Shown in pieces: positions 32,560 to 56,011 of a DNA stretch of 64,000 nucleotides. The stretch's first letter is position 1; each line of letters starts with the position of its first letter. The notes under the pieces were generated by a model, which did no database searches, was not told the origin of the DNA, and saw only the letters and a program-made list of their open reading frames with translations. The translations under genes and the position numbers were made by a program. Source of the DNA: Asterella californica (Eukaryota; Streptophyta; Marchantiopsida; Marchantiales; Aytoniaceae); contig JAYKYS010000008.1 of assembly GCA_036924285.1 (NCBI GenBank), positions 14,121,001 to 14,185,000 on the forward strand, written 5' to 3'.

Positions 32560-33768
32560 AGATGCACCAGATGGACTTCAAGAACACCTTCCTCAACGGT
32601 GATCTTGAAGAATTGATCTACATGCAGCAACCTCCAGGTTATAAGGATCCTAAGTTTTTTTCTCGTGTGTGTAAGTTACGGAAGGCTCTTTATGGTATGC
32701 AACATACACCAAGAGCATGTTATGCAAAGATCACTTCTTACTTGTAGTCTCTTGATTACCATCTTTGTAGTTCAGACTCTACCTTGTATTCATTAAGAAT
32801 ACGAGATCGGATTGTTGTGATCACTATCTGTGTTGATGACTTGACTTTACCGATAACTATGAGGAGCTTATTTCCCATATCAAGGATCATTGTCGAGTTC
32901 GAGATGATGGACTTAGGAGCACTGAAGTACTTCCTTGCTGTGGAGTTCATTAGAGATGAGAAGAATGTTTGGCTTCTACAGCGACAGTATGTTCTCAGTA
33001 TGCTTGAGAGATTTGGTATGCTTGACTGCAAATCCATTGCTACGTCATTAGAGCAAGGGGTAAAGCTAACAACAGAGGATGATGAGTTACTTGATGATCC
33101 ACGCATGTACAAATAGATGAGAGTTGAGAGTCTTATCTATCTGACTGTCACCAGATCAAACTTGAGCTATGCCGTCAGTCTGATCAGTCAACTTATGCAA
33201 TCATCACAGAGATCATATTAGGAGGCTCTCAAGCTGAAGTTCTCGATGCAGTACGAACTTCACAATCGATACGGTGGATCATTGTTGTTACATGACTACA
33301 CCGATGCTGATTGGACAGAGAGTGCTGACAGGAGATCCACGTCATGTTATGCTTTTGGACTTGGAAGCGCTGCTATAAGCTAGGCTTCTAAGAAGTAACC
33401 TACGATTGTTTTGTCATCCACAAAAATAAAATACCGAGGAGCGATAAATGCAACATGCGAATCGATTTGGCTTTCTTGTCTGCTTGCTGATACTGGTGTG
33501 GAGTGTACATATCCTGTTGTTGTATATACGGAGAACATTAGCAGCATGAAGTTAGCTAGTAATCTTGTTTTCCATGCTAGGACGAAGCACATTGAGGTGC
33601 ACTATCATTTCATTAGAGAGAAGGTTTTTGCAGGAGAGATTGAGCTCAATTATGTGAGCACAAGAAGTCAGGTTGCAGATATCTTTTACTAAGGTATTGT
33701 CTACAGATAAGTTTGATGTTTCAGACATTGTCTAGGAGTACAAGATGTAGAGTCGAGCTTGAAGGGGA
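32560..33768 (+). pseudogene. Ty1/copia pol fragment (RT and RNase H)
   Basis: Frame 3 reads continuously through a few stops (TAG at 32745, 33114 and 33220, among others). RT begins at MDFKNTFLNGDLEELIYMQQ, then KALYGMQHTPRACYAKI, and the catalytic block ICVDDL (normally YVDDL), followed by MDLGALKYFLAVEF. RNase H follows with LHDYTDADWTESADRRSTSC, IVLSSTKIKYRGA, and DTGVEC...VYTENISSMKLASN. The end reads HFIREKVFAGEIELNYVSTR. Gag, protease and integrase are missing, so the copy is 5'-truncated at about 32560. A GAAGGGGAG polypurine tract follows at 33761-33769. Confidence 0.88.
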
Positions 33769-33925
33769 GTGTTGATATAGTCCCAAGCTCTAGTAGATCA
33801 ATGGCTAATATAAGCTAGAGTGGTTAAGATAGTTGTCTATAGTTAGTTAGAGGACTAATCCACCATTAGAATTTTCCTTGAACTCATCTCCACTATATAT
33901 ACATGGAGAGGTGTAACACACGAGA
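33761..33925 (+). repeat. Copia polypurine tract and partial 3' LTR
   Basis: GAAGGGGAG directly precedes TGTTGATATAG at 33770, the classic copia PPT/LTR junction. The LTR fragment includes CTATATATACATGGAGAGG (a TATA-like core near 33892). No right end or matching 5' LTR was found. Confidence 0.6.
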
Positions 33926-34964: not shown

Positions 34965-35730
34965 TGAAGTGGACGAGGTGGAGGAGCTCAGGGAGGCCGT
35001 GGTGGTCGAGCTGGAGGTAGAGGTCCAGCACCTGAGAGAGGACTAGTCGGACCACCGCCTGCTACGACATCGGAAGCAGGTATGGCTGCTCAGATTGAGC
35101 AGTTGGAGCAGAGGATAGCTAGTATAGCTATGGCTCAGCGGAGATCTGGTGGAACAGAAGCTTCCACATCTTATGGAGGAGACGGAGGAGACTTCGATTT
35201 CATGACATGTGTGGCGCAGACTCGAGGTGCAGTACGTGCCTCTGAGCCACGAGGTGCGTCAGTGGAGTTGGATCCACAGGTCAGGCTGGGGAGGCTGGTA
35301 GACAGGTCAGGCTTCCTCAGTCATTCGCGTTATCGGAGACGTTGAGGACCACGTCTATGGTTCCTAAACGACCTATCGATGGTGCAGTGGGGTTGGAGGC
35401 ATCGACATCCAGGAGTGGAGGTGATGCGAGTCAACCCTCGACGTCTGTAGATGCGACGTCGAATCTGATATTGGGAGCGACTACTGCAGTTTTGCGAGCC
35501 TCATTATTCTCAGCCACGGATATGAAAGCATTGGGAGTCAACTTGGCTCTAGTGTTTCAGTTGGCGGTCACGCTCAGTGAGAGCGAGGATGTAGTTACCT
35601 CTAGTGCTGAAGTGGTTCAGCGAGAGGCGGTAGACGTGTCCATGGAGTCGAAGATCAGGACAGCTACCAGTGGTACTTGGCAAGCGGCAGCTGCTAGGTA
35701 AGATGAGTTACCAGCGAGACCGGCGATTGA
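34965..35730 (+). pseudogene. gag-like region with RGG-rich stretch
   Basis: In frame 3, about 34965-35080 reads as a Gly/Arg-rich tract (GRGGGAQGGRGGRAGGRG) followed by MAAQIEQLEQRIASIAMAQ, a short coiled coil. Such RGG tracts serve as nucleic-acid-binding tails in some retroelement Gag proteins. 35342-35701 continues in the same frame after a stop at 35343-35345 and contains low-complexity Ser/Thr/Val. No CCHC knuckle was seen. Assignment rests partly on position ahead of protease. Confidence 0.5.
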
Positions 35731-35739
35731 CCGTGCTGG

Positions 35740-36200
35740 TTGGTGTTGTTGGACAACAGAAGTGATATCTTCTGTTTGGTGGCACCTTCAGGAAAGGTGT
35801 ATCGACCACAGAAGGTCTTGTTAGACTCTAGAGCCCAACCGTTGATGTTGGAGAAGGCGGCGTGTATTGGTTTGGGTCTGAAGAAGTCCGAGGTGAAGAG
35901 ATGTCCATTCCAGTTGCAGACATCTCTACTGGGGTCAGGGGATACAGCTCTACACATGACACGCGAGATGTTGACGGTGAGAGTTCGACCAGATCATCCC
36001 ACGGATGGCTCCATGGTGAGGGCCAAGGTCATCGTTACAACCGCAGAGTCTTATGATGTATTGGTTGGAGATGTTGTGTTATACCCTATGGGGTTCGTGA
36101 TCGACTATTGGACGGAGACATCATCTTACAGATTAGGTTGGCAGTCCAGTGAGGGACGAGTGAGCCGCTTACCAGTGCGGTTCAGTGCTAGAGTTGGGAC
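35740..36200 (+). pseudogene. Retropepsin-like aspartic protease domain
   Basis: N-terminal third of a 393-residue open frame (35740-36921). VLLDSRAQPLMLEKAACIGL at about residues 26-45 is in the place of the D-[ST]-G-A active site; the Gly is Arg here (AGA at 35830, one G-to-A step from GGA), so catalysis would be lost. VIVTTAESYDVLVGDVVLYP and FVIDYWTETSSYRLGW match the later LxG and C-terminal parts of retroviral-type proteases. Confidence 0.65.
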
Positions 36201-36529
36201 GACGGAGCTTACACCAGGGACGATGACATCCGTTGCAGGGTTCAGTTCGATCATCACTTGGTCGGGTGAGTTGTTAGAGAGCAATGTCCATGCGGAGGAC
36301 ACTCCGGTCTTTGAGGAGGTGGAGGACATGCCTAACATGTCCACGTTAGTACCATCTGCTTTGGATGTTCCACTCTGGAGTTCGAGTGGGGAGTTGCAGC
36401 AGTATGCTGATCGGTTGGTGCACCAGGCTTGGAGTGAAGCCTTTGTAGCACCAGTAGAGGAACAAAAGGTTGTTTCTGCTACTGACCATGTGACCTTATC
36501 ACCGTTGGATACGACTCTCATTGTATGGC

Positions 36530-37560
36530 AGTATCTAGAGGAGGTTGTGTGTGTGCTGGAGCTGTTTGGAGAGATCAACACAGGTTTGGCTGCGGTATTG
36601 CATGCATGCATACAAGTACAACGATACTTGTACGTGGAGAGAGATGAAGTTGCGAGACGCATCTCATTGCGTCATGTGGCACGTTTGGTGCAGAGATATC
36701 CTAAGTTGTTACCCATATCCGTTGTTAGAAGATACCAGCAAGCATTACCGTCAGATATTTCGCTGTTGGGGGTGCAGGATCTCACGTTTGTTGGCATCAT
36801 TCACTTGGTGATAGCGGGGTGGTCATGTCAAGGTCACACGTGTGCGAGGAGAGATCAGGGATTACATGACCTGCGATCTAAGATGTTTTGGGAGATGTTA
36901 CGGATCTTACGACATCTCTAGATGCATCAGGTGGATTCTCCAGCGTACATCTTGGAGAACGTTCTTTTGTTGGGTGATGCTTGTGCACAGATGATGACGA
37001 GTGTGCACCAGGTGTAGTCCTGGATCGGACCGGCAGTGTTGTTAGATGCAGCGAGAGTGGGATCTCCTGCACATCATCCATGATTGTGATGGACGAACTT
37101 GTTACCGAGGGAGGTGCTCAAGCGCACACACGATGTAGTGAGACGACCAGCGCACCTCACAGTTGATGACATTTTGGATGCAAGGCGACGATCTCAAGTA
37201 GTGAGAGTCGTCGATAGGTCACTCATGGCAGTGGTGAACCTAGTGAGACGGTCCATGGCAACGTTGCTCACGTTGGTGAGCTTTCTAGCGTCACATGCTT
37301 ACAGAGATGGAGGACATGGGCTTGTGTGGGATGCTCGGTTACAACAATTGGTGGAGCCCAATGTCGATGAGCGAGAGCGAGCGATGGGTTTTCCTATGGG
37401 TACGACGGCAGTAGCTTCGATTTCAGAAGATTCACGTCATCAGGTGTTGGGTCAAGCAATGGACTTGAACTGCTTGACATGGATTGTTAGTCTTAGATTG
37501 GCTGAGCAGCGTCGATTGCGATCGACGGGTGTTACTGCTCAGACACTCTTGAGCTCTTTG
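36530..37560 (+). pseudogene. C5-cytosine DNA methyltransferase-like domain in a retroelement pol
   Basis: All in frame 1, collinear with the protease. Motif I (AdoMet site) is LELFGEINTGLAAVLHACIQ at 36556, with the motif II acid in YLYVERDEVARR. Motif IV is LVIAGWSCQGH with the catalytic Cys at 36826-36828 (normally PCQ; TCA for CCA is one C-to-T step), followed by QGLHDLRSKMFWEMLRILRH. After a TAG at 36919, motif VI is AYILENVLLLGD (ENV at 36955; normally ENVP). Motif VIII lies near 37048-37098, with two TGA codons before WTNLLPRE. Motifs IX and X are ERAMGFPMGTTA (about 37375) and VLGQAMDLNCLTWIVS (about 37440). The order I-IV-VI-VIII-IX-X is that of Dcm/DNMT enzymes, so the call is firm. 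The copy is inactive. In life it would have methylated cytosines, perhaps on the element itself. Confidence 0.85.
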
Positions 37561-37793
37561 TCTACCGGGTCGGTGGAGACAAAGACTGGGGACGAGGCAC
37601 GTGGAGTTTGTCATCCTTGGACATCATGGGATGTCGTAGGAGAGAGTGTGGAGCTTGCAGCTAGAACTGCAGAAGTTTTTCGCACAGTAGCGGTGGAGGT
37701 TGTTGGTGGTGAGCAGAAGGAAACTGCTCCAGAGGCTGCAAGATAGTAATCAACGACTTCATCTTCTACCTCTAGCATGGTGACAGAGGATAA

Positions 37794-39262
37794 TTGAGGT
37801 CGGAGATTGGACCCAAGCTTATAGGAGAGGAGAGACGAATAGTTCAGAGATTCTTGAAGAGCTACATGAATTGTTTTATCTTTAGTATGAAGGATTTGGG
37901 TACCTTGAAAGGACCAGGTATACGGATCGACTTGGCTAATGACACGTCAATCTTTAGACGTCTTTACAAGTACAAGAGCCTTTATCCAGAGTAGGACTCA
38001 AGACTTGTTGGAGGTTGGGTTGGTGGAGATATCGCATGGAGAGTATGCGTCTGTCACAGTTATGCCAGCAAAGAAAGATATGTATGGCAACTACACGGAT
38101 AGACGGATGTGTGGAGACTACCGTCCTATCAATCGGCAGACGAAGTCCGATAAGTATGTCATGCCGACACCTGAGGAGATCTTTGATGCAGTGGAGCATG
38201 TGAAGGTCTTCAGTACTTTAGATCTTCGAGCAAGGTATCATCAGTTGTCGGTGAGAGAAGAAGATAAGTCCAAGACAGCATTCTGAGGAATTGACTCTCA
38301 CGGCAAGGATTGTTTGTACCAATGACGGTTCTTACCATTTGGGTTGAAGAACGTCCCTGCTGAGTTCCAAAGGGTGATGGACAAAATCCTAGCAAGATTG
38401 GATTTCTTCAGATGTTACATTGACGACATCTTAGTCTATAGTGCTACAATGGAGGAGCACGAGAGACACTTACAGGATGTGTTCGAGCGGTTGAGAGCTC
38501 ATGGGTTGAAGTTACACCTTGGAAAGTGTAAGTTCTTCCAAGAGTTGGTAGAGTATCTGGGCCACACCATCTATCCAAGTGGGTTGGATGTTCAACAGAC
38601 GTAGGTTGAAGCTATTGCACATATCCCACGTCCCACAGATGTGAGTCGAGTTCGAACATTTGTTGGTTTGACAAACTTCTATCGTCGATACGTGAAAGAG
38701 TTCAGTGCAATTGTGAAGCCGTTGACCAAGCTGATGAAGGTGGACCAGGAATGACAGTGAGGAGATGAGCAGGAGCGAGCTTTCATAGAGCTCAAGGATA
38801 GGTTGACATCTGCTCCCATCTTGAGGAGACTCGTTAGAGGGCGTCCTTTCCAACTGCACACCGATTGGAGTATGTTGGGACTTGGAGCAGTGCTGACTCA
38901 GCATGATGATGAGAAAAAAGAGTTCGTGGTGGCGTATGCCAGTTGCTCCAACAATTCAGCGGAGACGAGGTATAGTTCGTATGAGAGAGAGTGTTGACGG
39001 CAGTGTGCACATTTTTGATGTTATTTGTTTGGGACCCCTTTGCTCTCATCACTGATCACCAGTCGCTCAAGTGGTTGATGGAGTCCGACAAGCTTACAGA
39101 GAAGCTTGCACGATGAGCTCTGATCTTACAGGAATATGACTTCCAGGTAGTACATAGACTTGGAGTTACAAACCTAGATGTCGATGGGTTGAGTCGCAAC
39201 CATGCAAGAGTCAGCAGGATCAGACAGGGGCTCGATGACATGACGAGGTTGATGAGGAGATA
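37794..39262 (+). pseudogene. Ty3 reverse transcriptase and RNase H
   Basis: RT begins with a KDLGTLKGPGIRIDLANDT segment, then GLVEISHGEYASVTVMPAKK, CGDYRPINRQTKSDKYVMPT, FSTLDLRARYHQL, FGLKNVPAEFQRVMD and the catalytic YIDD at 38416-38427. Connection and RNase H follow: RPFQLHTDWSMLGLGAVLTQ (catalytic Asp), FVVAYASCSNNSAETRYSSY, FALITDHQSLKWLM and QEYDFQVVHRLGVTNLDVDG. Stops include TGA at about 38284, TAG at 38602 and TGA codons near 38752-38760 and 39113. The domain ends just before the nested insertion at 39348. Confidence 0.88.
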
Positions 39263-39347
39263 GTGTCAAGGTGGCATACATCTGCTTTTCTTTGTGTGTT
39301 GGCCATGAATTCTAGTATGGAGAGCCAAGTCATATCTTTCTCTGGTC

Positions 39348-40262
39348 TATAAACCCTCCGCGGTCCTATCGATCAACTACCCCCCCGATCTCTCAACCTC
39401 CACGATCGTCATCCACGAATCTGCAACCTGTCGGGCCTGTCTCTCACTCAGGGGTCACCTCTGATGGGTTTGATGGAAGCACACCATGAACTTGAAGGAA
39501 AAATGCTGAGTTCACTCATTCATACACCCACAAACTTATCAACTAAAAATCTCCTTAAACACATCAACTAAAATCCTCCATTCTAACGACGTCTCTCAAG
39601 TTCTCACATGCAAAAAAATATCCCACACTCTCTATATTACTCAAGTTGTCATTACGACAATGTGAAAACAAGGATGAGGAGCTCTTCTCTACTCCTCTAT
39701 TTATACATTCTAGGTTTTTACTTTGGTATCCCCTGGTAACTCAACCGTAACTACTTTTACCGGGTTTTACTAAGATATTACTTAAGGTAAAAGCATTGAT
39801 CACATGGGCTTTTTACCTTTTCACATGGGCTTATACCTTCAAAGTCAACAACTTCTAGAAGGATTCTATAATATTCTCAAGGAATCTCGAATTTCCACCC
39901 CTCTCTACACTAGGACCCACTAAAAAGGAAACATGTGGAATCTCTTCTTGTTTTTAATGCCCACAAAGTCCACAACTTTAATCCAACCACTAATATCAAG
40001 TCAAAAAGGAGATAAGGGATACTTTCCACCTCCTTTCTACCTTTTAGACAAGATGACAAGATAGTAGTGCTCACTCTTTAACAAATATCTGAATTCTGTC
40101 AAAAGTACAGCTAAGTTTAACCATAACTAACTTTTAGCTAGTCATGACTAACTTGATACATCCTTAAAGTACTTTGGCAGCCAATAAACATTCTCAACAC
40201 TTAGTTATAACTAAACACCTTACTAATAGACAAACTTCCTATGTGTAACATAGGTCGTTACA
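39348..40262 (-). repeat. 3' LTR of nested element
   Basis: Ends are TGTAACGACC and (in the sense orientation) GGAGGGTTTATA; the last CA has become TA (plus strand TATAAACC against TGTAAACC in the other LTR). Partner of 47202-48115. Confidence 0.92.
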
Positions 40263-40282
40263 TTTAACCCCCGGACTAAATT
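40263..40282 (-). promoter_or_regulatory. Polypurine tract
   Basis: On the minus strand AGTCCGGGGGTTAAA abuts the 3' LTR start (TGTAACG), the expected place for plus-strand DNA priming. Confidence 0.6.
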
Positions 40283-40314
40283 TTCGCTCCGTCCTCGGAG
40301 TGAAGAGAGAACTT

Positions 40315-41679
40315 TCATCGATGAAACAACTTCAACTTGTCATGATTTACTCGATCAAATCTCCTTCCTCCCAGCTCCTGAAGGTCATATGTGAAGTTGC
40401 TCCACACCTTATCTACAACAAAAGGACCAAAATATCTCGGAAGAAACTTCTTCCTAGCCCTCTTGAATCCGATAGCATCATACAACATAACCCAATCTCC
40501 GACTTGAAAAGGTTTTACCTCCCTCTTGCCCAACCGTTTGTCGTAAATCTTCTTTTGATACGCCTGAGCTCGTTCCATCCGGATCATTGCTACCGCTCGG
40601 GTCTCTTCCAACTCCATGAGTTGCTCCCTTCTTGATCTGACCACGTCTTCTCCTCTCGACCTCTTCAACTTTCGTTGAATAGTTTGAAAAGTATCCAATT
40701 CGAATTGGATCGGCAACTTAGACTCCACTCCATAAACCAGTCGAAATGGGGAGTATCCAGTAGAAGTCTTTGTTGTCGTTCGGTACTCCCATAAGATGGC
40801 ATGTAGCCTCTTATCCCAAGTATGTTTCGCAGTTTCAACATCAGCATCTTTGGCGAGCATCATACAAAGTGTAAGATTGGTCTTCTCCGCAAGCCCATTA
40901 GCATTTGGTTTGTATGAGGTCGTTACTCGTGGCTTGATAGAAAAGTGTTGTAGCATAGTAGTAGTCATGCTCCCTACAAACTCTCCTCCTCTATCTGAGA
41001 CCAACTCTAACGGACATCCAAATCTCGTGATGATCCTCTCTCATAGGAATCTACCGACTTCTGTTTCATTGGTCTCTCTCAAAGGTCTAGCCTCTACCCA
41101 CTTGGTACAATAGTCAGTGGCGACTACAATGTATCTATTGCCTCGAGGTGTCTTATTAAGAGGACCTACAAAGTCAATACCTCATTTCTCAAATGGCCCT
41201 AATACTGGAATTGATCTTAACGGAGGTGTTCTAGTAGACTTTAGAGCAAATGCTTGACATACGTCACAAGTTTTGCAATAGTCTAAACACTCTTTGAAAA
41301 TCCCTCTCCAGTGATAACCCGCATCCAAAATCTTGAAGGTTGTTATCTTACCAGCAAAGTGACCTCCGCAAACAGTTCCATCGTGAAACTCGTGCATTAG
41401 CTTGAATGCCTCCTTCTGACCAACTGGTCTCCTTAGTAACCCATCTGCTCCTTGATGAAACATAATTCCCTCCACCATGGTGTAAGGTTTGCATCTCTTG
41501 ATCAACGCGTTACGTTCTAGGGTATGCATACCTTCTGGAAAGGAGCCATCTGCAAGGAAACTCCAGATTTCCTTGTACTCGTCCGGTATCTCCTCAATGC
41601 TTGTGATGATCATCAGATGCTCGTCTGGAAATGAATCATCAAATGGTTCTTCTCCCTCATCATCATAAGCCCTCGACAA
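40315..41679 (-). pseudogene. Integrase of nested Ty3 element (two TGA codons)
   Basis: The N-terminal zinc domain is at 41475-41260: HEFHDGTVCGGHFAGKITTF, then YCKTCDVCQ (HHCC). The catalytic core has Asp in GIDFVGP (about 41170), Asp in LVSDRGGEF (about 40998) and Glu in GLAEK, with exactly 35 residues between the last two (D-35-E). The C-terminal part holds FQVGDWVMLYDAIGF and RYFGPFVVDKVW, an SH3-like DNA-binding fold. TGA interrupts after PFEK (about 41181) and after RFL (about 41043), both one transition from sense codons. The frame is offset by one base from gag-pol. No chromodomain follows. Confidence 0.9.
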
Positions 41680-44600
41680 AAGATCAACATTGCATGCTTT
41701 TTCCCTGGTCTATCTTCGATCACGTAGTCGTATTCTGTTAGAAGGATCTTCCACCGAGCAATACGACCTTCGACATTAGGCTTATTAAAGATATACTTTA
41801 AAGTCTTGTGATCTGTGACTATGGAAAATTTCCCTCCTAGCAAGTAGTGTCGGAATTTCTTCAATCCAAAGATCACCGCTAATCCTTCTCGTTCAGTCAC
41901 GGAATAATTCTTCTCCGCTGGCACCATCTGCCTACTAGCATATGCTATAGGATGATCATGCTCATCTTTATCTAACTGACTTAATGTACACCCGATAGCT
42001 ACACTGGAGGCATCCGTATACAGAATAAATGCTTTACTCCACTCAGGTTTAGCAAGTATAGGAGCTGTCACCAATGCCTTTTTCAGCTCCTCAAATGCTT
42101 CCTTTGCCTTCTGATCATGCACTATCAAGTCAAAATCAACTCCCTTCTTCATGTACATAGTCAAAGCTATTGCTTTGTTTGAGAAGGAAAAGACAAACCT
42201 ACGATAATATCCAACCATGCCAAGAAACTGCCTCAACTTTGTCAAGTTGATCGGAAATGGAAGATCCACAATCTTCTTCACCTTCTCAGGATCTACCGCA
42301 ATTCCATTCTTGGAAATGATGTGCCCTAACAGCAGACCTTCTTCGCAGCCAAAGATGCACTTCTCTGGATTTAGAGAAGCGTTGGCTTGCTCCAACCGCT
42401 GCAAAACTTTGATCACATGATCAAAGTGGTCCTCCTTTCGTCCGTACACATAGAAATCGTCAATGAAATCCCGAACAAACTTCCCTATGAATGGTTCAAA
42501 CACCTTGTTCATGAACCTTTGAAACGTGACCGGAGCATTACACAATCCGAATGGCATCACCCGAAATGCAAATGTTCCCCAAGGAGTAGTGAAAGTAGTC
42601 AACTGTTGATACTCTTGTGCTATCTTGATCTGATTATACCCACTATAACTATCACCAAAGCTGTACCACTCATGACCAGCAACTTCCTCCAAAATCTCAT
42701 CTATAAATGGTAGAGGATAATAATCCTTCTTGGTAACTGCATTCAGCTTCTTATAGTCTATGCACACTCGCAGCTTACCATTCTTCTTCTTGACAATCAC
42801 AATGGGTGAAACCCGTTCTGAGTTCTCCACCTCGTAGATGAAACTCGCCTCCCTCAACTTGTCTATCTCCTCCTTGACCATCATTGCTGTTGTAGGATTG
42901 ACCCTTCTCTGCTTCTGTCGAACTGGTCTTGCGTTTTCCTCCAATTCGATTTGATGAGTCTCGAGAGTCACCTCCTTCAAATCCTTGTAGCTGAAAGCAA
43001 ACACATGGATATATTTTCGAAATATATCTAGGAATCTACTTTTCTCCTCTTGAGTGACATTGATACCAAACTTCAGGGTAGAGAGTCTTCTCACAATCTC
43101 TGCCTCACTCAACTCTTCTTTGTCAGAATCTTTCTCCACTGCTGGTCGAGGCAACAAGTCAATAGCACTAAGCTGATGTAATGATTCATCTCGACCAAAT
43201 CCTTCGTCCTCAGACGAGGATTCTTGATCATAAGAATCTCCGGTATCTACTTCTGAGACACTCTGATCGTCCTCCGTATCAGATTCCCAGTAGTCACTAG
43301 TGGGTCTATCAGAGTCAGAAGTCACAACTCCAACACCCGAGAGAGGAACTATCACTCTATGATCTCTAGGCCCAATCCGTAAGTATCCCTTGTGCCACCT
43401 ATCCGTGGTGCGCACAGCTCTCAACCAAGGCCTACCTAGGAGCAAATCATAACTAGAGTCCTTTAACACTTGAAAGGACATCAATGTTTGAACTCCCATC
43501 ACAGACACGACCACCTTCTCTAACACACCAAGAGGTCTTACCCGTTGCTTGTTAGCCATCCCCACGACAATGCTAGCCGGGCGAGTTGGTTCCATCCCCA
43601 ACTTCTTCATCAACCTCTCCGATATGGCGTTTACAACCGACCCTCCATCCACCAATACGTCAGAGACGTAGTGACCATTAAACCAAACTTCAATCTTTGA
43701 AGCCCTAGTGCATACCTCTGAAGCATGCACATCCACCACACCAACTCCCACAGACTTTGATGTCTTGCTCTTGGGTTTCTTCTTCTTGCTTCTCTTAGAA
43801 CTCAGTCCTCCTCTGAGTTCCCTTCGTAAGCTGGGATTAAGTGCGATCAGTTGTCCAACAGTGATGTTGGCTTTCTGAGCACCCACATCTTCAACCACAT
43901 CATATCCCGCTTGGGAAGATGAAATGGTGAAATCCGTCATCTCCAGCTTCCTTCTTGGCTCCCTTGGTGTACTCGAAACATTACTCGAACGAGTATTTCT
44001 ACTAGCTGATTCCTCCATGAAAACCGGTTCATCAGAAAATCGAGTTCTTTTCCTTTCTTGAGCTAAAAGCTCCACTGGTGCATGAGAAGAGTTTGAACTC
44101 TCTCCTTTCTCGTAGATGGGATCTCGCACGACATCGATAGTAGCCACCCCCTTGTCTCGTCCTTGTGATGGATTTCCTCCACCCACATTCATTCTGATAG
44201 CTTCGGCACCTCTTGCTCCGTTGTTAGGACAATTTCGCTGGAAATGAGAACCTCCACACGTCCAACAAGTGATTCCTCCAAAGTTACCTTGGTTGCCTCC
44301 AAAGTTACCTTGATTTCCTCGGTTGGGATTGTTATCGTAACCTCTTTGACCTCCTCCTCCACCTTTGTTCCTCCATTCTCGTAACTGCATCACGTTTATC
44401 TTGAGATCCGCAAGAGTATCGGTGATGCTCTTCAGCTCGGCATGAAAATCAGAGGTGGCAGTAGACATCGTTGTTGGGACAAACGGTCTTGGCACCACCG
44501 TCGGAGTAGGAGCTGACGTTGAAGCAATCACCAATTGTGATGGTGCAGGTGCGATCGTTGTGACTACACTAGGAGTCGGAGTTGACACCAGAGCAGCATG

Positions 44601-45161
44601 ATGAGGTTGGATGATATCTCCTTCATCCAAACTCTCTTCCATATTTGTCGCAATCTTGATGGCCTCCGCTTTGGTTGCTGGCTTCTCGTACCTCACTTGG
44701 GTTCGAATTGAAGGCCTCAACCCTCCCACCAAGTTCTTGGTCAGCATTGCTCCAATCCCTGCCATCGTTAGTTCCACATTGTCTCCACTCTTCCGTAGGA
44801 CCGTCCGAAACCGCTGCTCCAACTTATCCACCCTTTCGGCATATTGCCGAACTTTCTCGTCGTCACGTTGCTTCAAATGAGTAAGCTCCACCATGAGCTT
44901 CTCATAACTCTCTTCTGGAAGAAATTCTTCGATGAGTGCATTACTCAACGTCTCCCATGTGTCCTCAACTGCACCAGGTGTCTGGCTCTTCACTCGGTCT
45001 TCATACCACGTAAGAGCAAAATCTTCTAAAAACTCTGGCAGTAACAACACCCATTCTTCCTTCCTTCTCACGTTGTTTCTGATGCAACCCCTTTTGAAAC
45101 CTCGAACAAACGGTTCTACATCTTCATTGTCCTTCCCATGAAACACAGGTAGCTTTCCCAT
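41613..45161 (-). CDS. Gag-Pol polyprotein (gag, protease, RT, RNase H) of nested element
   Basis: 1182 residues, uninterrupted. Residues 1-200 are capsid-like (retrotransposon gag: WVLLLPEFLEDFALTWYEDR, ALIEEFLPEESYEKL). A Gly/Asn-rich linker follows, then the knuckle CWTCGGSHFQRNC (about residue 300). The retropepsin active site is VLVDGGSVVNAI at about residue 505. RT runs from about 775 to 950, with YKKLNAVTKKDYYPLPFIDE, FGDSYSGYNQI and the catalytic FIDDFYVYG. RNase H is at about 1045 (FILYTDASSVAIG) through HYLLGGKFSIVTDHKTLKY. The frame is lost near 41700 by one missing base (RPGKKHAMLIFC...), so integrase is in another frame. Gag and pol share one frame, as in many plant Ty3 elements. 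The F-x-DD box is like Tat/Athila-type lineages. Confidence 0.92.
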   Translation of the reverse strand: MGKLPVFHGKDNEDVEPFVRGFKRGCIRNNVRRKEEWVLLLPEFLEDFALTWYEDRVKSQTPGAVEDTWETLSNALIEEFLPEESYEKLMVELTHLKQRDDEKVRQYAERVDKLEQRFRTVLRKSGDNVELTMAGIGAMLTKNLVGGLRPSIRTQVRYEKPATKAEAIKIATNMEESLDEGDIIQPHHAALVSTPTPSVVTTIAPAPSQLVIASTSAPTPTVVPRPFVPTTMSTATSDFHAELKSITDTLADLKINVMQLREWRNKGGGGGQRGYDNNPNRGNQGNFGGNQGNFGGITCWTCGGSHFQRNCPNNGARGAEAIRMNVGGGNPSQGRDKGVATIDVVRDPIYEKGESSNSSHAPVELLAQERKRTRFSDEPVFMEESASRNTRSSNVSSTPREPRRKLEMTDFTISSSQAGYDVVEDVGAQKANITVGQLIALNPSLRRELRGGLSSKRSKKKKPKSKTSKSVGVGVVDVHASEVCTRASKIEVWFNGHYVSDVLVDGGSVVNAISERLMKKLGMEPTRPASIVVGMANKQRVRPLGVLEKVVVSVMGVQTLMSFQVLKDSSYDLLLGRPWLRAVRTTDRWHKGYLRIGPRDHRVIVPLSGVGVVTSDSDRPTSDYWESDTEDDQSVSEVDTGDSYDQESSSEDEGFGRDESLHQLSAIDLLPRPAVEKDSDKEELSEAEIVRRLSTLKFGINVTQEEKSRFLDIFRKYIHVFAFSYKDLKEVTLETHQIELEENARPVRQKQRRVNPTTAMMVKEEIDKLREASFIYEVENSERVSPIVIVKKKNGKLRVCIDYKKLNAVTKKDYYPLPFIDEILEEVAGHEWYSFGDSYSGYNQIKIAQEYQQLTTFTTPWGTFAFRVMPFGLCNAPVTFQRFMNKVFEPFIGKFVRDFIDDFYVYGRKEDHFDHVIKVLQRLEQANASLNPEKCIFGCEEGLLLGHIISKNGIAVDPEKVKKIVDLPFPINLTKLRQFLGMVGYYRRFVFSFSNKAIALTMYMKKGVDFDLIVHDQKAKEAFEELKKALVTAPILAKPEWSKAFILYTDASSVAIGCTLSQLDKDEHDHPIAYASRQMVPAEKNYSVTEREGLAVIFGLKKFRHYLLGGKFSIVTDHKTLKYIFNKPNVEGRIARWKILLTEYDYVIEDRPGKKHAMLIFCRGLMMMREKNHLMIHFQTSI

Positions 45162-45375
45162 CTTGTAACTACTCTTTCTACTCTTCTAATTTTTGTGCAA
45201 TAACTACTCGCTTAAAAGAGTACGAACATCACCAATTCCATTCGCGAATAATCTACCATAGGTAAAATGAAAGGAAATGGTTGTAACAACACCTCTTGTG
45301 CCATCTCTTCTCCCAAGGTAATCATGAGCCTGAGTCGCATCACCGTCTTCTCCACCATCCGAATGACGATCTCCA

Positions 45376-45867
45376 TCACAACTCAGCCGAGTCCTCTTTT
45401 GAAGTTGACAACTTCTCCGTCTCAGCTCTTTGAGTCTCGTCCAACTTCTCGACTACTGACGTAAGTAGGACGGCCACATCGACGCACTTGTGTCCTCTTG
45501 ATAGATCACCCACTCCACAACTTGGACAAGGATCTTCGTCTAGTAGATGAATTGGCGCTGGTGACGATGGACCCACTCGAAGACTTACATCAGTAAACTC
45601 CCGCTTCCCTTTAGCTCTCTCGGTTCTGATTCTAGTTGGACAATTCACTACTTTGTGTCCCAACCCTCTACAGAAATAACACCACAAGTCGGTTTCTACT
45701 CTTCTCCTCGGAGATTCTACTTGAGGTTTAATACTAGGGTTTTCAAACTCGACGATAATCTCTCTCAAACTTTCTCCGACACTTACTATGACATCTAAAC
45801 CTTGAGGAAGGTTTCTAAGTCTAACCTTCCAATCTTTTGAATTTCCACTCATGTTGCACCTTCTCAA
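45376..45867 (-). CDS. ORF2 of nested element, CCHC zinc-knuckle protein
   Basis: 163 residues upstream of gag-pol on the same strand. It contains CYFCRGLGHKVVNC, an exact C-x2-C-x4-H-x4-C knuckle (about residue 67), in a basic context, then CPSCGVGDLSRGHKC, a second Cys/His cluster. The N-terminal half (VRLRNLPQGLDVIVSVGESL) is anonymous. A separate knuckle-bearing ORF ahead of a Gag that already has its own knuckle is unusual. It may be a split-off gag part or an accessory nucleic-acid-binding protein. Confidence 0.65.
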   Translation of the reverse strand: MRRCNMSGNSKDWKVRLRNLPQGLDVIVSVGESLREIIVEFENPSIKPQVESPRRRVETDLWCYFCRGLGHKVVNCPTRIRTERAKGKREFTDVSLRVGPSSPAPIHLLDEDPCPSCGVGDLSRGHKCVDVAVLLTSVVEKLDETQRAETEKLSTSKEDSAEL

Positions 45868-45990
45868 CCATTAAGTGGACAAAATATCATAGAGGAAAAT
45901 AATTCTACATCACTTTCTTAACTCTTCCGAGCTTTATACTGAAAATCGTGTATTATACATTCTATACACGAAATAAAATCTAATCTAAAA

Positions 45991-46431
45991 TTAACTATCG
46001 AAGATATGATCCTCCTCACCATCGTTTGTAATAATCACAACAGACATCTTGAACTCACTCTTGTAAGGATCCAACTCTACTTCACCAGGAGCATTCGTGA
46101 CCTCCACAGTGAATGATGCTTTAAACTCGGCTTTCTTCAAATCTGTGTCAATGGTCGCGGAAGCTTCTTCGTATAGGGTAAAGAGGGCACCCCAAGTGCT
46201 ATAGATGCGGGTTCGTAACTCATCTATACTTAACTTGGGCTTCTCCGTCTCTGTTCGAACTCCTAAACGTCTCTTCTTCCACCTCGTCATTCGAACTGGA
46301 TTCCCCATGAAGTATCTTCGAGACCTCCTTGTATGCCGAAACGTATATCTCTTAGTTCGTAAGAGATCTCTCCAAGATTTTTGTGGTCTCCAGTAGCTCA
46401 ACCTCCAAGCTACTAAATCATGAAGTTTCAA
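45991..46431 (-). CDS. ORF1 of nested element, unknown
   Basis: 146 residues, first ORF after the leader. The N-terminal part is strongly basic (RTKRYTFRHTRRSRRYFMGN, TRWKKRRL) and the C-terminal part acidic (VELDPYKSEFKMSVVIITND, EEDHIFDS). No domain recognised. It may start further upstream or be partly untranslated leader. Confidence 0.45.
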   Translation of the reverse strand: MKLHDLVAWRLSYWRPQKSWRDLLRTKRYTFRHTRRSRRYFMGNPVRMTRWKKRRLGVRTETEKPKLSIDELRTRIYSTWGALFTLYEEASATIDTDLKKAEFKASFTVEVTNAPGEVELDPYKSEFKMSVVIITNDGEEDHIFDS

Positions 46432-46559
46432 CAGAAACTTCTCTAATCAGAAGAGATGGTGATGACTGTACAAATTTTCACAGAACTGAAATTTGTATAT
46501 TTTTACTTCCCTCATGGTTGTCAACCCCCTCCACTTTGAAAAATTCTTTCTCCCTCTTC

Positions 46560-46840
46560 AGACCTCATCTTCTCATGATTTCTTTTGTCCTGGATAGCTT
46601 ATCAGCCACTCTAAAACACTAGAAAGTTTCTCAGGAAAATAAAATTCACAGAAAATCTGACAATGACTGTAAATTTTTTCCAGATAACAGAATTCCTCAA
46701 CTCTCACGAATAGACCCACTCAACTTTGAAAATTCATTGCTCCCTCTCTAGACCACCTTTTCCTATGATTTCTTTTGTCCTAGATAGCTTATCAGTCAAT
46801 CTAAAACACTGGAAAGTGTCAGCCAATCTAAAACACTGAC
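46560..46840 (-). repeat. About 190-bp tandem repeat in leader of nested element
   Basis: TGATTTCTTTTGTCCTGGAT at 46576 and TGATTTCTTTTGTCCTAGAT at 46766 begin two units, each followed by AGCTTATCAG and CTAAAACAC. A third partial unit (CAATCTAAAACACTG) is at about 46826. Leader repeats of this kind are common in long plant Ty3 elements. Confidence 0.65.
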
Positions 46841-47149
46841 AGCGACTGTACAAATTTTCCAGAGAGCAGAATTTCTAAACTCACAAATTTATCTCCTCTA
46901 ATAACTTTTCTCTCCTCCTTTCTCTACAACTCTTGTTGCACCCTCTTTCAACTCTCCTCAAACTCTTTCTAAGTGAACAAGATGTAAAGAATGACTTCGA
47001 ACGCGTCATATATCACTACGGGATACACGAAAGGTTCTAACGTTGCTAACATCGCGTTAGCTCTCTCTCCTCTCAACATTCTCTCCATGTGCTCTCTCAT
47101 AATCTCTTTTTGTCGAATATAGAACTGAACTCTAAACATCGTTCAACGA

Positions 47150-47193
47150 TCCCTTCAAGTGAGGTCCCGTTGCCGGGACCTCACTTGAAGGGA
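47150..47193 (-). ncRNA. Perfect 20-bp stem-loop with GNRA tetraloop at the primer-binding site
   Basis: CCCTTCAAGTGAGGTCCCG (47151-47169) and CGGGACCTCACTTGAAGGG (47174-47192) are exact reverse complements; a T-A pair (47150/47193) extends the stem to 20 bp. The loop is TTGC on the plus strand, that is GCAA in the sense (minus) RNA, a stable GNRA tetraloop. It begins 8 bases after the 5' LTR. The sense sequence TGGTTCCCTTCAAG starting at the LTR junction is where a tRNA primer would bind, so the hairpin overlaps the primer-binding site. Confidence 0.85.
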
Positions 47194-47201
47194 ACCAAAA
47201 A

Positions 47202-48115
47202 TGTAAACCCTCCGCGGTCCTATCGATCAACTACCCCCCCGATCTCTCAACTCCACGATCGTCATCCACGAATCTGCAACCTGTAGGGCCTGTCTCTCAC
47301 TCAGGGGTCACCTCTGATGGGTTTGATGGAAGCACACCATGAACTTGAAGGAAAAATGCTGAGTTCACTCATTCATACACCCACAAACTTATCAACTAAA
47401 AATCTCCTTAAACACATCAACTAAAATCCTCCATTCTAACGACGTCTCTCAAGTTCTCACATGCAAAAAAATATCCCACACTCTCTATATTACTCAAGTT
47501 GTCATTACGACAATGTGAAAACAAGGATGAGGAGCTCTTCTCTACTCATCTATTTATACATTCTAGGTTTTTACTTTGGTACCCCCGGTAACTCAGCCGT
47601 AACTACTTTTACCGGGTTTTACTAAGATATTACTTAAGATAAAAGCATTGATCACATGGGCTTTTTACCTTTTCACATGGGCTTATTCCTTCAAAGTCAA
47701 CAACTTCTAGAAGGATTCTGGAATATTCTCAAGGAATCTCGAATTTCCACCCCCTCTCTACACTAGGACCCACTAAAAAGGAAACATGTGGAATCTCTTC
47801 TTGTTTTTAATGCCCACAAAGTCCACAACTTTAATCCAACCACTAATATCAAGTCAAAAAGGAGATAAGGGATACTTTCCACCTCCTTTCTACCTTTTAG
47901 ACAAGATGACAAGATAGTAGTGCTCACTCTTTAGCAAATATCTGAATTCTGCCAAAAGTACAGCTAAGTTTAACCATAACTAACTTTTAGCTAGTCATGA
48001 CTAACTTGATACATCCTTAAAGTACTTTGGCAGCCAATAAACATTCTCAACACTTAGTTATAACTAAACACCTTACTAATAGACAAACTTCCTATGTGTA
48101 ACATAGGTCGTTACA
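47202..48115 (-). repeat. 5' LTR of nested element
   Basis: 914 bp, TGTAACGACC ... GGGTTTACA in the sense orientation (proper TG..CA ends). Partner of 39348-40262; followed outside by the GGTC duplication. Confidence 0.93.
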
Positions 48116-49468
48116 GGTCATAGAGTAGATGATGAGTCTCCGGATCCTAAGGGTGGAGATGGTGTTCCAGACCACCGAGATATCTAGACGATGTGACCGT
48201 GATGGAGTATCTACGTACTGGTATGGTGGTAGACACAGTAAGTGCCAAGGTGCGAGATCGTGTCTTTCAACGAGCGAAGAGATTTCGACGAGAAGGACAA
48301 CATGTACTTCGAGTGTGGGGTGATGGAAGAGTACGAATAGTGTCACATCCATCCCAGAGGACACAGTTAGTACGACATGCCCATGAGGAGTTGGGACATT
48401 TTGGAGTGAAGCGTACGCATAGCTTACTCCAAGAACAGTATTGATAGCGTGGTCTGCACGTCGATGTGCAACAGTTTGTTGCACGATGTGTGGTTTGTGA
48501 TCGATACGAGCATCGTTTAATGCTCCTACTCCACAGTTACACCCCTTACCGATTATGGGGTTGGGTTACCGTTGAGTTTGGATTTTGCGGGACCTTTACC
48601 GTTGACGGTATGTCATCACCGATATGTGTTGGTGATGATGGAGCACTTCTCCAAATGGATTGAGTTGGTGGCATTACCGGACAAGACGAGTGAAGGGACG
48701 GCGTAGGCGTTCTTAGATCAAGTGCTGAGTCGTTTTGGAGCACCAGCTGAAGTGCTGACAGACCAAGGTACTGAGTTCCTTGGTGAGTTTCGGGTCTTGT
48801 GTGATCAGGGACTGATTGATCATCGGACTACATCTCGAGATCATTTTGAGACAGATGATTTGACGGAGAGGGTAGTTCAGACGGTGAAGAGAAGATTGCA
48901 CAAGTATGGCTTGCAGAATGACCACTTGGGAGACTGAGATGTGCAGTTACTATGGTTGGCTATGGATTATCGTTTCAGTCGCTTGTCTTCCTTCTCACCG
49001 TATTTTCTATTGTATGGCCGAGATCCAGATCTACCTTCGGTCATTCGTCATGATTCTATTGAGGTGCTGAACCTTGATGACCCGGATATGTGGATGAGAG
49101 TATGTTCTCAACGAGCAGAGACATTTCGAAGAGTTATGCCCATGGCTTTTGAGAACCTAGCGATTGCTCAACATAGAGACACGTTGCGATATGCAACTAT
49201 CCGAGGAGGAGGTTATCGATCGTCGATTCGCAGGTTTCGTCCTGGCGATTATATCTATCTACAGCAGACCGCATCGACGACGTTGGATGTGATCACAGGG
49301 TGCACTATTTTACGAGTGCGTGAGGTGTTACCTTCTGGAATACTTATGTTAGAGAGCCGTGATGGTGTTGTTTGGAAGGACCATGTGCGTAATTGCACGC
49401 CATGTCATCTTCTCAACATCGATGATACCGTTGACCCAAGCTTGGCAGTTGTACGCGCGGGCTTGAGG
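48116..49468 (+). pseudogene. Integrase of the methyltransferase retroelement
   Basis: Resumes directly after the nested element. The zinc-binding part is at 48378-48500: LVRHAHEELGHFGVKRTHSL, then VQQFVARCVVCDR (HHCC). The core has Asp in LDFAGP (48581), Asp in LTDQGTEFLGEF (48761) and Glu in TERVVQTVKRRLHKYGL (48866); spacing is 60 and 35 residues, canonical for Ty3 integrases. 48941-49468 is open: SPYFLLYGRDPDLP, RRFRPGDYIYLQQ (GPY-like/SH3 region) and LRVREVLPSGILMLESRDGV. Frameshifts separate the zinc part from the core and a TGA lies at about 48936. Confidence 0.88.
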
Positions 49469-49599
49469 TGTATGTTGTGTGGGTCTGCTGGTAAAGCAGC
49501 TCGTATGTTGGTGTGTGATGGTTGTTCGAGAGGTTGGTACATGTCATGTTTGACACGGTCTCTCTTACTGGACGGTGGGTTTGTCCTCGATGTATATAG
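49469..49599 (+). pseudogene. PHD finger at C-terminus of integrase
   Basis: CMLC, then 11 residues, CDGC, then SRGWYMSC, in the integrase frame; a one-base shift then exposes WVCPRC and a stop at 49597-49599. This is the Cys4-His-Cys3 layout of a PHD zinc finger, with the His changed to Tyr (TAC). The duplicated copy at 51800-51940 still has CAC (His) at that place and the same terminal CPRC and stop, which confirms the motif. PHD fingers bind histone H3 tails; at the end of an integrase it would be the counterpart of a chromodomain that targets insertion (inference). Confidence 0.82.
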
Positions 49600-50456
49600 T
49601 AAGGATAGCCGATTAGATCTTTGCGTGGTATGGATTGCAGACAAGCGACTAACGATGGGACGATGTAGCACCCGGCCTCCTGATCCTTACACCCATGAAG
49701 GTGTATATCACGTAGTGAGATATGGAGCTATCTGGAGTTAGAGGGACCTAACTGCCAGTTAGGGAGACGATTGTGATACACTTGGGTATGTGTATGACAT
49801 CATCCATGTGTTATGTGTATGTGTGGTGTATCTTTGACAGCGATGTATGTTGTGTAGCGATGTGTATGCGCACGACAGCTGTCACGTCAGTTTGGCACCT
49901 CGGTTAAGTTGACCGAGTGCGAAGTGATGAATCCTGGTAAGGCCGTTAGTGACGTTAGGACGAGTTGGTGGGAGAGTCCACTAGGGGTATACTTCGCAGG
50001 TAGGGCTTGGAGACCTTAGTTCTTCGAGTTGAGCCTTCAAGTTCTTGGCTATGGTGGATAGTCTTGGTGAGTGATATCTGGATTCTCTTCGAGCACATAG
50101 TGGATTTGACTCGACTTTAGTGATTGTATAGTGCCCGTTGGCATGGTGGAGTGAGTACATACTATTTATCATTGTGGTACACTTGAGTATGTGTATGACA
50201 TCGTCCATGTGTTATGTGTATGTGTAGTGTACCTCTGACAGCGATGTATGTTGTGTAGCAATGTGTATGCGCACGACAACACTGACGATGTTGGATGTGA
50301 TCGCATGGTGCACTATTTTACGAGTGCTTGAGATGTTATCTTCTGAAGTACTCATGTTAGAGAGACGTGATGATGTTGTTTGAAAGAACCATGTGCGTAA
50401 TTGCACGTCATGTCATCTTCCAAACATCGATGATATCATTAACCCAAGCTTAACGG
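49600..50456 (+). repeat. Element 3' flank with partial duplications
   Basis: A segment starting GTATGTGTATGACATCATCC (about 49784) recurs at about 50185 and 52124. 50280-50455 repeats the integrase C-terminal coding stretch 49273-49447 with many changes (TTGGATGTGATC, GTGCACTATTTTACGAGTGC). It is thus a rearranged second copy of the element's 3' end. Confidence 0.75.
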
Positions 50457-51775
50457 TGTCGGGTTGAGAGTCTTCCTGGGAAGGGCGAACCTTCTGGCTG
50501 TGATATGAGCTTGAAGGCTGTGTTCAATCTACTAAGGGAAGCGTTGGGCTTCAGACTGTGGCTGGTTTCCTCAAAGGATAGGCTTCAGGTCTCAAGGTGA
50601 TACTGAAAAATACTCATATAAGTCTCTTGGTTCTTCTGATATGTTCAGGAAGCAAAGTTCAGACTTAACTAGCAATGATAAGATCAGATGGCGAACTTTG
50701 ACACTCAGGATTGAGAAATATGTGAAGGTGCAGACTACAGAACTCCTCCTACATGTCAATAAGGTCCTACTGGATACACATATGAAGTTTCAGCTTCAGA
50801 TCAATTCAGAGCACTAAGATATGAGTAGAAACTTTCTGAGTAGAGAAATTACGGCAATTTCTGATACCCATACAGCTGTTTCGACCTAGAACAACGAATT
50901 GGCTCGATCACTTTGGGAAATTCTTACAGGATTTGCAGTACACAGCTTGCTGAACACTCCTGTGAAGTTGGGCCTCCTGATTCCACACAGAACTCCAGAT
51001 CTCGCTCTCTGAAGTTGCTATTCCAGATTGAGAGCTTTTCGGACCCCCTCTACTTCAGCGGTCGCCCTGAATTACTCAGTAACTCAAATCACTTGAAACT
51101 TTTTTGACAATCGTAGCCCGGCTGACAGTGAACGCAACCACAAAGGTTTGAAGCGATTTCCTCAATTCTGCTGCAATTGGCACTCAAAACCCCAAAATCA
51201 ACAAAAGTGATGCAGTTTTGGCACAATCCAAACTTCAATTGGGCATAACTCCTTGTTTATTGATCCAAATCGATCAAGAATTTCACTGACAATGCTTGGC
51301 TCGACGAGCTCTATCTCTCTGTGCTCTCAGATTTTACAGTGTTTTCACAAATTACTCGAAATCCACTCTAGAGCTCTGTTTCTAAACTTAGAGTTTAACA
51401 GAAGACAAAAATGGACCAATGGGAGTTCATAGCTCCATTTGGTTGTCATTTTGTGCCTTAAACTACCTGGTAACTTATCTGCACTCATAGGCTACCACGT
51501 CAAGCCCCCTAGAGTGTCAACGTAAAACCTAAACTACCTAAAACGGCACGCAGCCCTGAAAGTAACTTGAAATCAGCTAGAAAGCGTGCATGGGCGACAC
51601 GCAAATACAACCCATGAGCTTAAATCCTATCGACATGATAATCAACCTACTAAGACTCAAAATATATAACATCTTTCAAAAATGGACTTCTCTGAGGTCT
51701 TAACTTCACTCAGAGAGACTAACGCCTGACAGAGAAGTGAATCATTTACTATGTGAAATGATTCACATCACGACA
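50457..51775. mobile_element. Solo-LTR-like insertion, about 1.3 kb
   Basis: Interrupts the second copy of the integrase tail. Ends are TGTCGGGTTG and ATCACGACA (TGTCG..CGACA inverted termini). ACGG flanks both sides (4-bp duplication), or AACGG if the element ends one base earlier. There is no coding capacity, as expected for a solo LTR. Its first 50 bp resemble 24241-24295. Confidence 0.65.
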
Positions 51776-51940
51776 ACGGTTGTACGCGTGAGCTTGAGGT
51801 GTATGTTGTTTGGGTCTATTGGTGGAAAAGGTCGTATGTTGGTGTGTGATAGTTGTTCGAGAGGTTGACACATGTCGTGTTTGACTTCATCTCTCAGTGT
51901 CGTTCCTACTTGATGGCAAGTTTGCCCTCGATGTATATAG
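51776..51940 (+). pseudogene. Second copy of PHD finger coding segment
   Basis: Continues the duplicated 3' end after the solo-LTR-like insertion. It keeps Cys-rich LVCDS and HMSC (His intact, but TGA replaces the preceding Trp codon) and ends in VCPRC plus TAG at 51938-51940. The first C-x2-C reads CMLF, so a ligand is lost. Confidence 0.7.
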
Positions 51941-52490
51941 CAAAGATAGTCGATTAGATCTTTGCGTGGTATGGATTACGGACAGACAACTAATGATGGG
52001 GCGATGTAGCATCCGGCCTCCTTATCTTTGCATCCACGAAGATGTATATCACGTAGTTGGGATATGGGACTATCTGGAGTTAGATGAATCTAACCGTCAA
52101 TTAGGGAGCGATTATGGTACACTTGTGTATGTGTATGACATCATCCATGTGTTATATGTATGTGTGGTGTATCTATGACAGTGATGTATGTTGTGTAGCG
52201 ATGTGTACACGCAAGACAACTGTCACTTCAATTTAACACCTCTGCTAGGTTGACCGAGTGCGTAGTGGCTAGTCCTGATATGGTTGTTAGTGCCGTTAGG
52301 ATGACTTCTTGGGCTAGCTCCACTAGGGATATACTCCGCAAGTATGACTTGTAGGCTTCAGTCCTTCGAGTTGAGTCTTCAAGCTCTCACTATGGTAGAT
52401 AGTCTTGGTGAGTGCAACTTGGATTCTCTGTTGCGTAGAGTGGGTGTGACTCGACTTTAGTGTTTGTGTATTGTCGGTCAAGTTGTAATC
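51941..52490 (+). repeat. Second copy of element 3' flank
   Basis: Parallels 49600-50150, including GTGTATGACATCATCCATGT and TTCGAGTTGAG...CTTCAAG. Similarity ends near 52490, which may be close to the element end. Confidence 0.65.
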
Positions 52491-55400: not shown

Positions 55401-55753
55401 GGGACATAGAGAAGCAGACGTGTTACACAGTTAATTAAAGGTAAATTAAGGGTACTCTTCAAAGGTGAGGTTTAGGTTTAGCGCAACCCATACAAAGGGA
55501 TTCAGAAAATCGTACTCCACAAAAACATTACATCCTGATGCGCTTACCATGCAAGTCATCCGTACTGGAAACGCAAATAGTGTTAAGTACTTAACCTCTG
55601 CCGTCAAAGTTGGCCCATAGTATCAGAAGGAACAATCATGTAGGGCATATCTTTTTCTCCTAAGTTATCAAACTGCCTTAAAGCCTCCTTGCTTCTGTCA
55701 TTTCATGAGCACAACGATGAAAACACGAAACCAGATGCAATCCAATCAACTCG
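52491..55753. other. Intergenic, no supported gene
   Basis: Open frames at 53186-53560 (minus) and 53839-54219 (plus, 126 residues) have no recognisable domain. The rest is anonymous and partly AT-rich. Confidence 0.4.
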
Positions 55754-56011
55754 TTCTCCGAAATTGCTTGGCAATCAAGCTTACTTTTGCCTACTATTAC
55801 TCACAGTAACTGCAATACATACTGGAGCTGTACCACATTTGACTTGCAATATAACCAAAAGTCTTTTCAAAACGAACGACTGTTCTCCGAAATTGCTTGG
55901 CAATCAAGCTTACTTCTGCCTACTGTTACTCACAGTAACTGCAATACATACTGGAGCTGTACCACATTCGACTTGCAACAGAACCAAAAGTCTTTTCAAA
56001 ACGAAGGACTG
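55754..56011 (+). repeat. 129-bp direct tandem duplication
   Basis: Two adjacent units, 55754-55882 and 55883-56011, both beginning TTCTCCGAAATTGCTTGGCA and ending AACGA..GACTG, with only a few differences. Because 129 is a multiple of three, an ORF (55689-56117) runs through both and repeats a 43-residue stretch with a hydrophobic core (YFCLLLLTVTAIHTGAV). Coding status is unproven. Confidence 0.85.

Follow-up and report, generated by a model that had tools for sequence, protein, structure and literature searches.

A degraded DNMT3-like methyltransferase domain within a putative bryophyte-type Ty3/Gypsy element of Asterella californica

How does a C5-cytosine DNA methyltransferase (MT) come to lie between the protease and the reverse transcriptase (RT) of a retroelement, and what might it do there? 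The question arises from 64,000 nucleotides of the liverwort Asterella californica (contig JAYKYS010000008.1, positions 14,121,001 to 14,185,000; hereafter the window), for which an original prediction had proposed a Ty3-type element of this kind, an arrangement that our mapping of relatives bears out. Plants silence transposons through DNA methylation; if the reading developed below is true, an element equipped with a de novo MT of its own and with a reader of histones would be a self-silencing parasite, or one that protects its DNA. On balance, we regard the feature as a defunct copy from a Ty3/Gypsy family of bryophyte type that probably captured a DNMT3-like catalytic domain, a reading to which, taken jointly with the mechanism proposed below, we lend slightly more belief than doubt.

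The methyltransferase domain and its class

The degraded DNMT3-like C5-cytosine MT domain occupies positions 36541–37512 on the + strand, as indicated by motifs I–X, four internal stops, homologs and a profile. In translation, frame +1 over 36481–37746 contains these four stops (TAG, TAG, TGA and TGA) and ends with a terminal TAG. Within this frame, motif I reads ELFGE, motif IV WSCQG (catalytic Cys codon 36826–36828) and motif VI ENV (36955–36963), motif VIII is present between motifs VI and IX, and motifs IX (ERERAMGF) and X (GQAMD) start at 37369 and 37450, respectively. In the customary numbering of C5 MT motifs, motifs I, IV, VI, VIII, IX and X thus follow the canonical order, catalytic Cys included, as had been proposed, motifs I and IV of this copy having decayed. 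Besides the stops, this decay comprises a change of the protease DSG to DSR, of the motif IV Pro to Ser, and of FGG to FGE in motif I.

The Pfam profile PF00145 matched the first open piece of the window MT at E=0.047 and the second open piece not at all; on the read-through frame (X at stops) it reached E=0.0012 and 18.7 bits, below the gathering cutoff of 22, and TIGR00675 reached E=5e-6 and 26.4 bits, below its cutoff of 100.65. On the window copy alone, the above-threshold PF00145 match on which the original prediction had staked itself was therefore not found. The same cutoff was passed by the related proteins P0193, P0199, P0204, P0205 and P0228, missed by P0231 (19.9), and P0226 and P0220 were absent from the match list. 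The window MT has 71 homologs at E<=1e-3 (best E=1.8e-156), and a profile of 51 relatives, with the window row left out, scored 484 bits at the MT site, compared with -0.7 bits for the next listed six-frame piece of the window and at most 3.3 bits in 20 six-base-block shuffles of it. The profile score set against the shuffles rules out chance or a frame artefact as the source of the signal, and we let the relatives overrule the PF00145 shortfall because they match unambiguously (71 homologs, 484 bits). Judged from its sequence, the window copy is a decayed remnant and no working member of PF00145.

With respect to enzyme class, the nearest solved relatives are DNMT3A/B, both by sequence and by the fold of a predicted model of the relative P0004. 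This model, derived from a diverse alignment, reached a predicted local distance difference test score (pLDDT) of 90.8; a less diverse alignment, made up largely of shorter family proteins, had yielded a model of low quality (pLDDT 59.2). Searching solved chains with the MT profile returned DNMT3 at E=6e-17 versus DNMT2-type chains at E 0.001 to 0.005, and DNMT1 and CMT chains were absent among the 55 sequences at E<=10 in this single search of solved chains. Capture of a DRM enzyme was ruled out by the canonical motif order, as opposed to the DRM rearrangement (VI–X before I–V); the DRM matches were crossed, the query end falling on chain residues 166-243 and the profile front on 226-349. Sequence and model together indicate that the enzyme is DNMT3-like.

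The element and its relatives

By similarity to relatives, the element reads gag tail, protease, MT, RT, RNase H, integrase and PHD finger, all on the + strand, and so presents the protease–RT–RNase H–integrase order of Ty3/Gypsy elements. The C-terminal part of gag plus a linker, 5'-truncated and frame-shifted (frame 3 then 2), was located at 35040–35737 by tblastn of the Marchantia proteins P0193 and P0203. It is followed at approximately 35803–36117 by the aspartic protease region (catalytic DSG appearing as DSR at ~35824), placed by tblastn of P0199, in which phmmer locates the protease; no Pfam protease match was found in the window, and the label derives from relatives. In the tblastn mapping of relatives, protease region and MT together span 35740-37728 and share one frame, in agreement with the original prediction. 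RT and RNase H, interrupted by both stops and frame shifts, occupy 37806–39247 (tblastn of P0199; three-frame translation). The element is 5'-truncated, and comparison of its two sides revealed no long terminal repeat (LTR) pair of its own in the window.

Downstream of RNase H, the element is split by a younger Ty3 element nested inside it on the - strand (39348–48115), as defined by an LTR pair (39348-40262 and 47202-48115, 98.6% identical over 914 columns) and bordering GGTC at 39344-39347 and 48116-48119. The nested element retains an open gag-protease-RT-RNase H frame of 1190 residues, and because of this open frame and the 98.6% LTR identity we consider its insertion recent relative to the decayed MT element. 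Its presence concealed the older element's integrase and PHD finger, which span 48187-49591. A spacer and the integrase, with zinc-binding, core and C-terminal parts, lie at 48187–49464 (+), located by tblastn of P0199, P0073, P0113 and P0226 and by homolog search, and the integrase open reading frame (ORF) ends in a PHD finger at 49469–49591 (+), the second half of which is damaged. PF00628 reached E=3e-4 and 21.2 bits on this finger, below its cutoff of 24; homologs of the finger carry PF00628. The DNMT3-like class of the enzyme, the PHD finger and the nested insertion that hid the integrase-PHD part go beyond what had been predicted.

A complete C4HC3 set was found in 61 of 125 proteins (120 listed of 281 matches, plus 5 others) by a pattern test that short, truncated and variant-spacing rows fail. 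Among the best solved relatives of the PHD finger (60 of 81 shown) are the PHD fingers of CHD4, an MLL3 homolog, PHF12, KDM5B, DPF3, PHF21A, ATXR5, UHRF1 and AIRE. Several of these bind unmodified H3.

The full order also occurs, as judged from ORFs and motif patterns, in an open-frame relative, L001. This 9285-base contig comes from a cyanobacterial metagenome bin and is the single relative recovered from a scan of prokaryote genomes. Filed under uncultured Synechococcales, it is likely to be contamination by a eukaryote-type retroelement; its ends share a 127-base identical overlap, compatible with collapse onto one repeat without proving it. ORF1 of L001 encodes a CCHC motif, a protease with DSG and, last, the MT (LFAG, PCQ, ENV, HRPR, ERERAMGF, GQAID), and ORF2, in the same frame, supplies RT (YIDD), an RNase H motif, integrase (HHCC and a D-35-E-like pattern) and a complete PHD finger. 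On the downstream side of this finger, the two distant elements share a 15-base block, identical in both and palindromic at its core (L001 7049-7063; window 49872-49886), within a 41-column stretch that is 80% alike in local comparison (E=1.5e-4).

Homologs of the window MT were found in the liverworts Calypogeia fissa, Marchantia polymorpha and Riccia sorocarpa and in the mosses Sphagnum troendelagicum, S. tenellum, S. jensenii and S. fallax, the named plant homologs being 48-72% identical to it across the aligned parts; many further homologs are metagenome proteins. P0207, filed under Candidatus Obscuribacterales, looks like eukaryotic contamination of a bacterial record. The Marchantia protein P0199 combines protease, MT, RT and RNase H in a single chain, and P0220 from Sphagnum fallax contains pieces of protease, MT, RT and integrase; P0193, likewise from Marchantia, is an annotated protein of the gag-protease-MT type. 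In a midpoint-rooted tree of the 52 domains, among 119 sequences (118 homologs plus the window), with an MT stretch of at least 290 residues, which excludes the named Sphagnum rows, P0235 and P0239, the window MT groups with Calypogeia and Marchantia rows in a clade of 19 (support 100/97). Together with the homologs annotated in Marchantia, Riccia and Sphagnum, this places the element in a land-plant lineage, as the original prediction had held, and probably in that of the bryophytes. No Klebsormidium protein was named among the homolog rows of the MT searches or the 120 listed of 281 integrase-PHD matches. Viral contigs yielded no relatives with the bryophyte alignment, the MT-integrase alignment or ORF2 of L001; with an alignment of L001-like relatives they yielded 16 loci, each a partial MT-domain match only.

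The MT is not confined to one place in the polyprotein. In P0226, P0231, P0234, P0235 and P0239 it precedes integrase and PHD finger with no RT between, the PHD finger being present in all five; RNase H was detected ahead of the MT in P0231, and the starts of P0226 and P0229 resemble, by eye, the end of RNase H, a short P0229 stretch being labelled RT by phmmer. In the MT tree, a branch with support 100/99 sets P0226, P0229, P0231 and P0234 apart from the remaining rows, together with P0227, their own unity being weak (50/31). In the integrase tree, computed without P0201, a 99/99 branch separates off nine rows, among them the window, L001 and P0220, the MT position being known for a minority of the nine, and the five MT-integrase rows do not clearly form a single clade. 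These data suggest that the MT either moved inside the polyprotein or was captured twice.

What the methyltransferase may do

The explanation that we favour starts from the position of the MT ahead of a stop codon. Gag-protease-MT would be the abundant product, packaged many-fold above RT and integrase, which would arise through occasional UAG readthrough. The protease may then release the MT within the particle. The freed MT would methylate cytosines, probably at CG, either in the still unintegrated double-stranded complementary DNA (cDNA) or, once the element has entered, in the chromatin nearby. The integrase-borne PHD finger may bind the histone H3 tail, most likely unmodified, and steer integration to silent or tolerant chromatin. 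An element arriving pre-methylated would impose a lower host cost, or have its cDNA shielded, and could persist as a silent passenger. As a whole, from captured domain through Gag-level MT and cDNA self-methylation to PHD-guided integration, this explanation strikes us as narrowly probable; self-methylation of the cDNA, which we infer throughout, is plausible and the likeliest of the readings weighed. A more specific version is tentative and, in our judgment, rather doubtful: a plant Ty3 lineage would pair a DNMT3 writer with a PHD reader, make the writer at Gag level via a tobamovirus-type leaky UAG so that excess MT pre-methylates cDNA, and let the reader guide integration to tolerant chromatin, the MT having moved or been captured more than once.

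Support for the Gag-level layout comes from the stop itself. UAG-CARYYA is the type I readthrough signal described for tobamoviruses and others (PMC5382211). In L001, TAG CAATCA separates ORF1 from ORF2, so that UAG-CAA-UCA matches this consensus, and at the homologous place in the window the TAG ending the MT frame and the next six bases (37744–37752, +) are one mismatch away from it. This match is suggestive and no proof. Of the 118 homologs, 75 are covered to motif X, and 63 of these terminate 14-204 residues further on with no other domain found. On these comparisons, Gag-level MT production is our favoured layout for the window's group.

As for constraint on the MT, 51 of the 52 near-full rows retain the catalytic Cys and 50 the motif VI Glu, motif IV being altered to ECQ in three rows, ECK in one and PYQ in one. 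Between the window and Marchantia P0199, MT and RT are equally similar, and between the window and L001 third codon positions are the most divergent in MT, RT and integrase alike.

Several observations weigh against our explanation. The readthrough site is known from two DNA sequences only, the window copy with its one mismatch, and the full consensus follows 2 of 190 TAGs in L001, with one mismatch or fewer after 43 of 1695 TAGs in the window. The count of 63 among 75 reflects protein ends rather than stop codons and may include contig ends; the other 12 homologs run on into RT, RNase H or integrase. The gene models P0044, P0060, P0066, P0199, P0201 and P0220 link the MT with RT, RNase H or integrase, perhaps across predicted introns, and the metagenome proteins P0223, P0228 and P0237 pass from MT into RT without a stop. 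Of 31 comparable pairs (counted without P0229), 23 show the higher similarity in RT and 8 in the C-terminal MT half; between the window and L001, identity is 41.5% in the MT, 62.8% in RT and 64.9% in the integrase. We lowered our confidence slightly because the full MT-RT pair tally favours RT conservation. The MT element shows no CpG depletion (0.79 versus 0.72 in the rest of the window), and this comparison accordingly revealed no CpG loss specific to the element that might record self-methylation. Finally, the MT domain of the Klebsormidium nitens element KnitGypsy-Dnmt3 showed no activity in yeast, a result its authors judged inconclusive (PMC5890265).

These same conservation data would suit an MT kept for a non-catalytic role, such as nucleic-acid binding or particle structure, since motif IV is altered in some relatives and the MT lags behind RT both in the pair tally and against L001; retention of the catalytic Cys and motif VI Glu in nearly all rows is hard to explain without catalysis, and we judge this role unlikely. 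About as improbable in our view, if anything a shade more so, is an enzyme acting mainly on the host, methylating competing elements, host defence loci or invading DNA rather than its own cDNA: a defence role of transposon methylases has been argued (PMC6338049), and a Gag-level layout would also permit release into the cell, but the present analysis gave it no direct support.

Methylation of RNA, be it the genomic RNA or the tRNA primer, in the manner of DNMT2 seems very unlikely to us, as the weak DNMT2-type matches lie far below those to DNMT3, even though C5 MT folds do include the tRNA-acting DNMT2. We give hardly any credence to a host MT gene or chance insertion beside unrelated retroelement fragments; the window copy is indeed broken and split by another element, yet its MT lies in the frame of the protease region, the protease-MT-RT order recurs in P0199 from Marchantia and P0220 from Sphagnum, and L001 contains the whole element. 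A host gene beside a retroelement fragment was rejected on this shared order and on L001.

Known systems and surroundings

Gypsy elements bearing a DNMT3 are already known from the alga Klebsormidium nitens; new here would be the bryophyte occurrence, the PHD finger, the Gag-level layout and the two MT positions, for none of which, as land-plant occurrence, PHD partner, layout or positions, did we find an earlier report in the openly licensed literature. Chromoviruses are chromodomain Ty3/Gypsy elements in which a chromatin-reading module ends the integrase. The present element shares with them the reader at the integrase end and the idea of targeted integration, but has a PHD finger in place of the chromodomain, plus an MT. 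The annotation of relatives in the model plant Marchantia polymorpha makes the role of retroelement MTs testable there, and bryophyte DNMT and PHD gene counts may include retroelement polyproteins.

That MT-bearing retrotransposons occur in a charophyte alga and in dinoflagellates, as the original prediction stated, holds: de Mendoza et al. 2018 described SymbioLINE-Dnmt, SymbioDIRS-Dnmt3 and KnitGypsy-Dnmt3, with de novo CG methylation in yeast by the SymbioDIRS domains (PMC5890265), and a 2025 study repeats the presence of DNMT3 in retroelements of streptophytes and dinoflagellates (PMC12344493). Like our element, KnitGypsy-Dnmt3 has a DNMT3 without the DRM rearrangement within a Gypsy polyprotein of a streptophyte host; compared by description only, ours differs in its bryophyte clade, in having the MT in ORF1 before a stop (L001) and in the PHD finger on the integrase, and the repeats of KnitGypsy-Dnmt3 are described as DIRS-like (PMC5890265). 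The Symbiodinium elements SymbioDIRS-Dnmt3 and SymbioLINE-Dnmt likewise carry C5 MTs, but belong to the tyrosine recombinase DIRS and the LINE classes and to dinoflagellate hosts. The words Marchantia, moss and PHD are absent from the main text of PMC5890265, in which bryophyte appears once, for host DNMT3; a 2019 opinion article states that land plants such as tracheophytes lack transposon methylases (PMC6338049). The bryophyte host genes PpDNMT3a/b (PMC6453930) also represent DNMT3-type domains in non-seed plants, but are described with a C-terminal DUF3444, which was absent at E<=0.01 from the eight retroelement proteins scanned.

Downstream of the element, a second partial copy spans 50284–52473 (+), as placed by sequence mapping of relatives, with an integrase tail at 50284-50451 and PHD plus 3' region at 51779-52473; it is broken by ~1.3 kb at 50459-51775, probably another insertion. 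No Rfam family matched the window at gathering score. Upstream, at 33000-33800, apparent remains of a Ty1/copia polyprotein were recognised by eye. An open frame at 10116-10694 (-) that weakly matches a GDSL lipase (E=0.017, short of the cutoff) is possibly a host gene exon, and at 55753-56012 a 131-base unit occurs in two tandem copies that are 95% identical.
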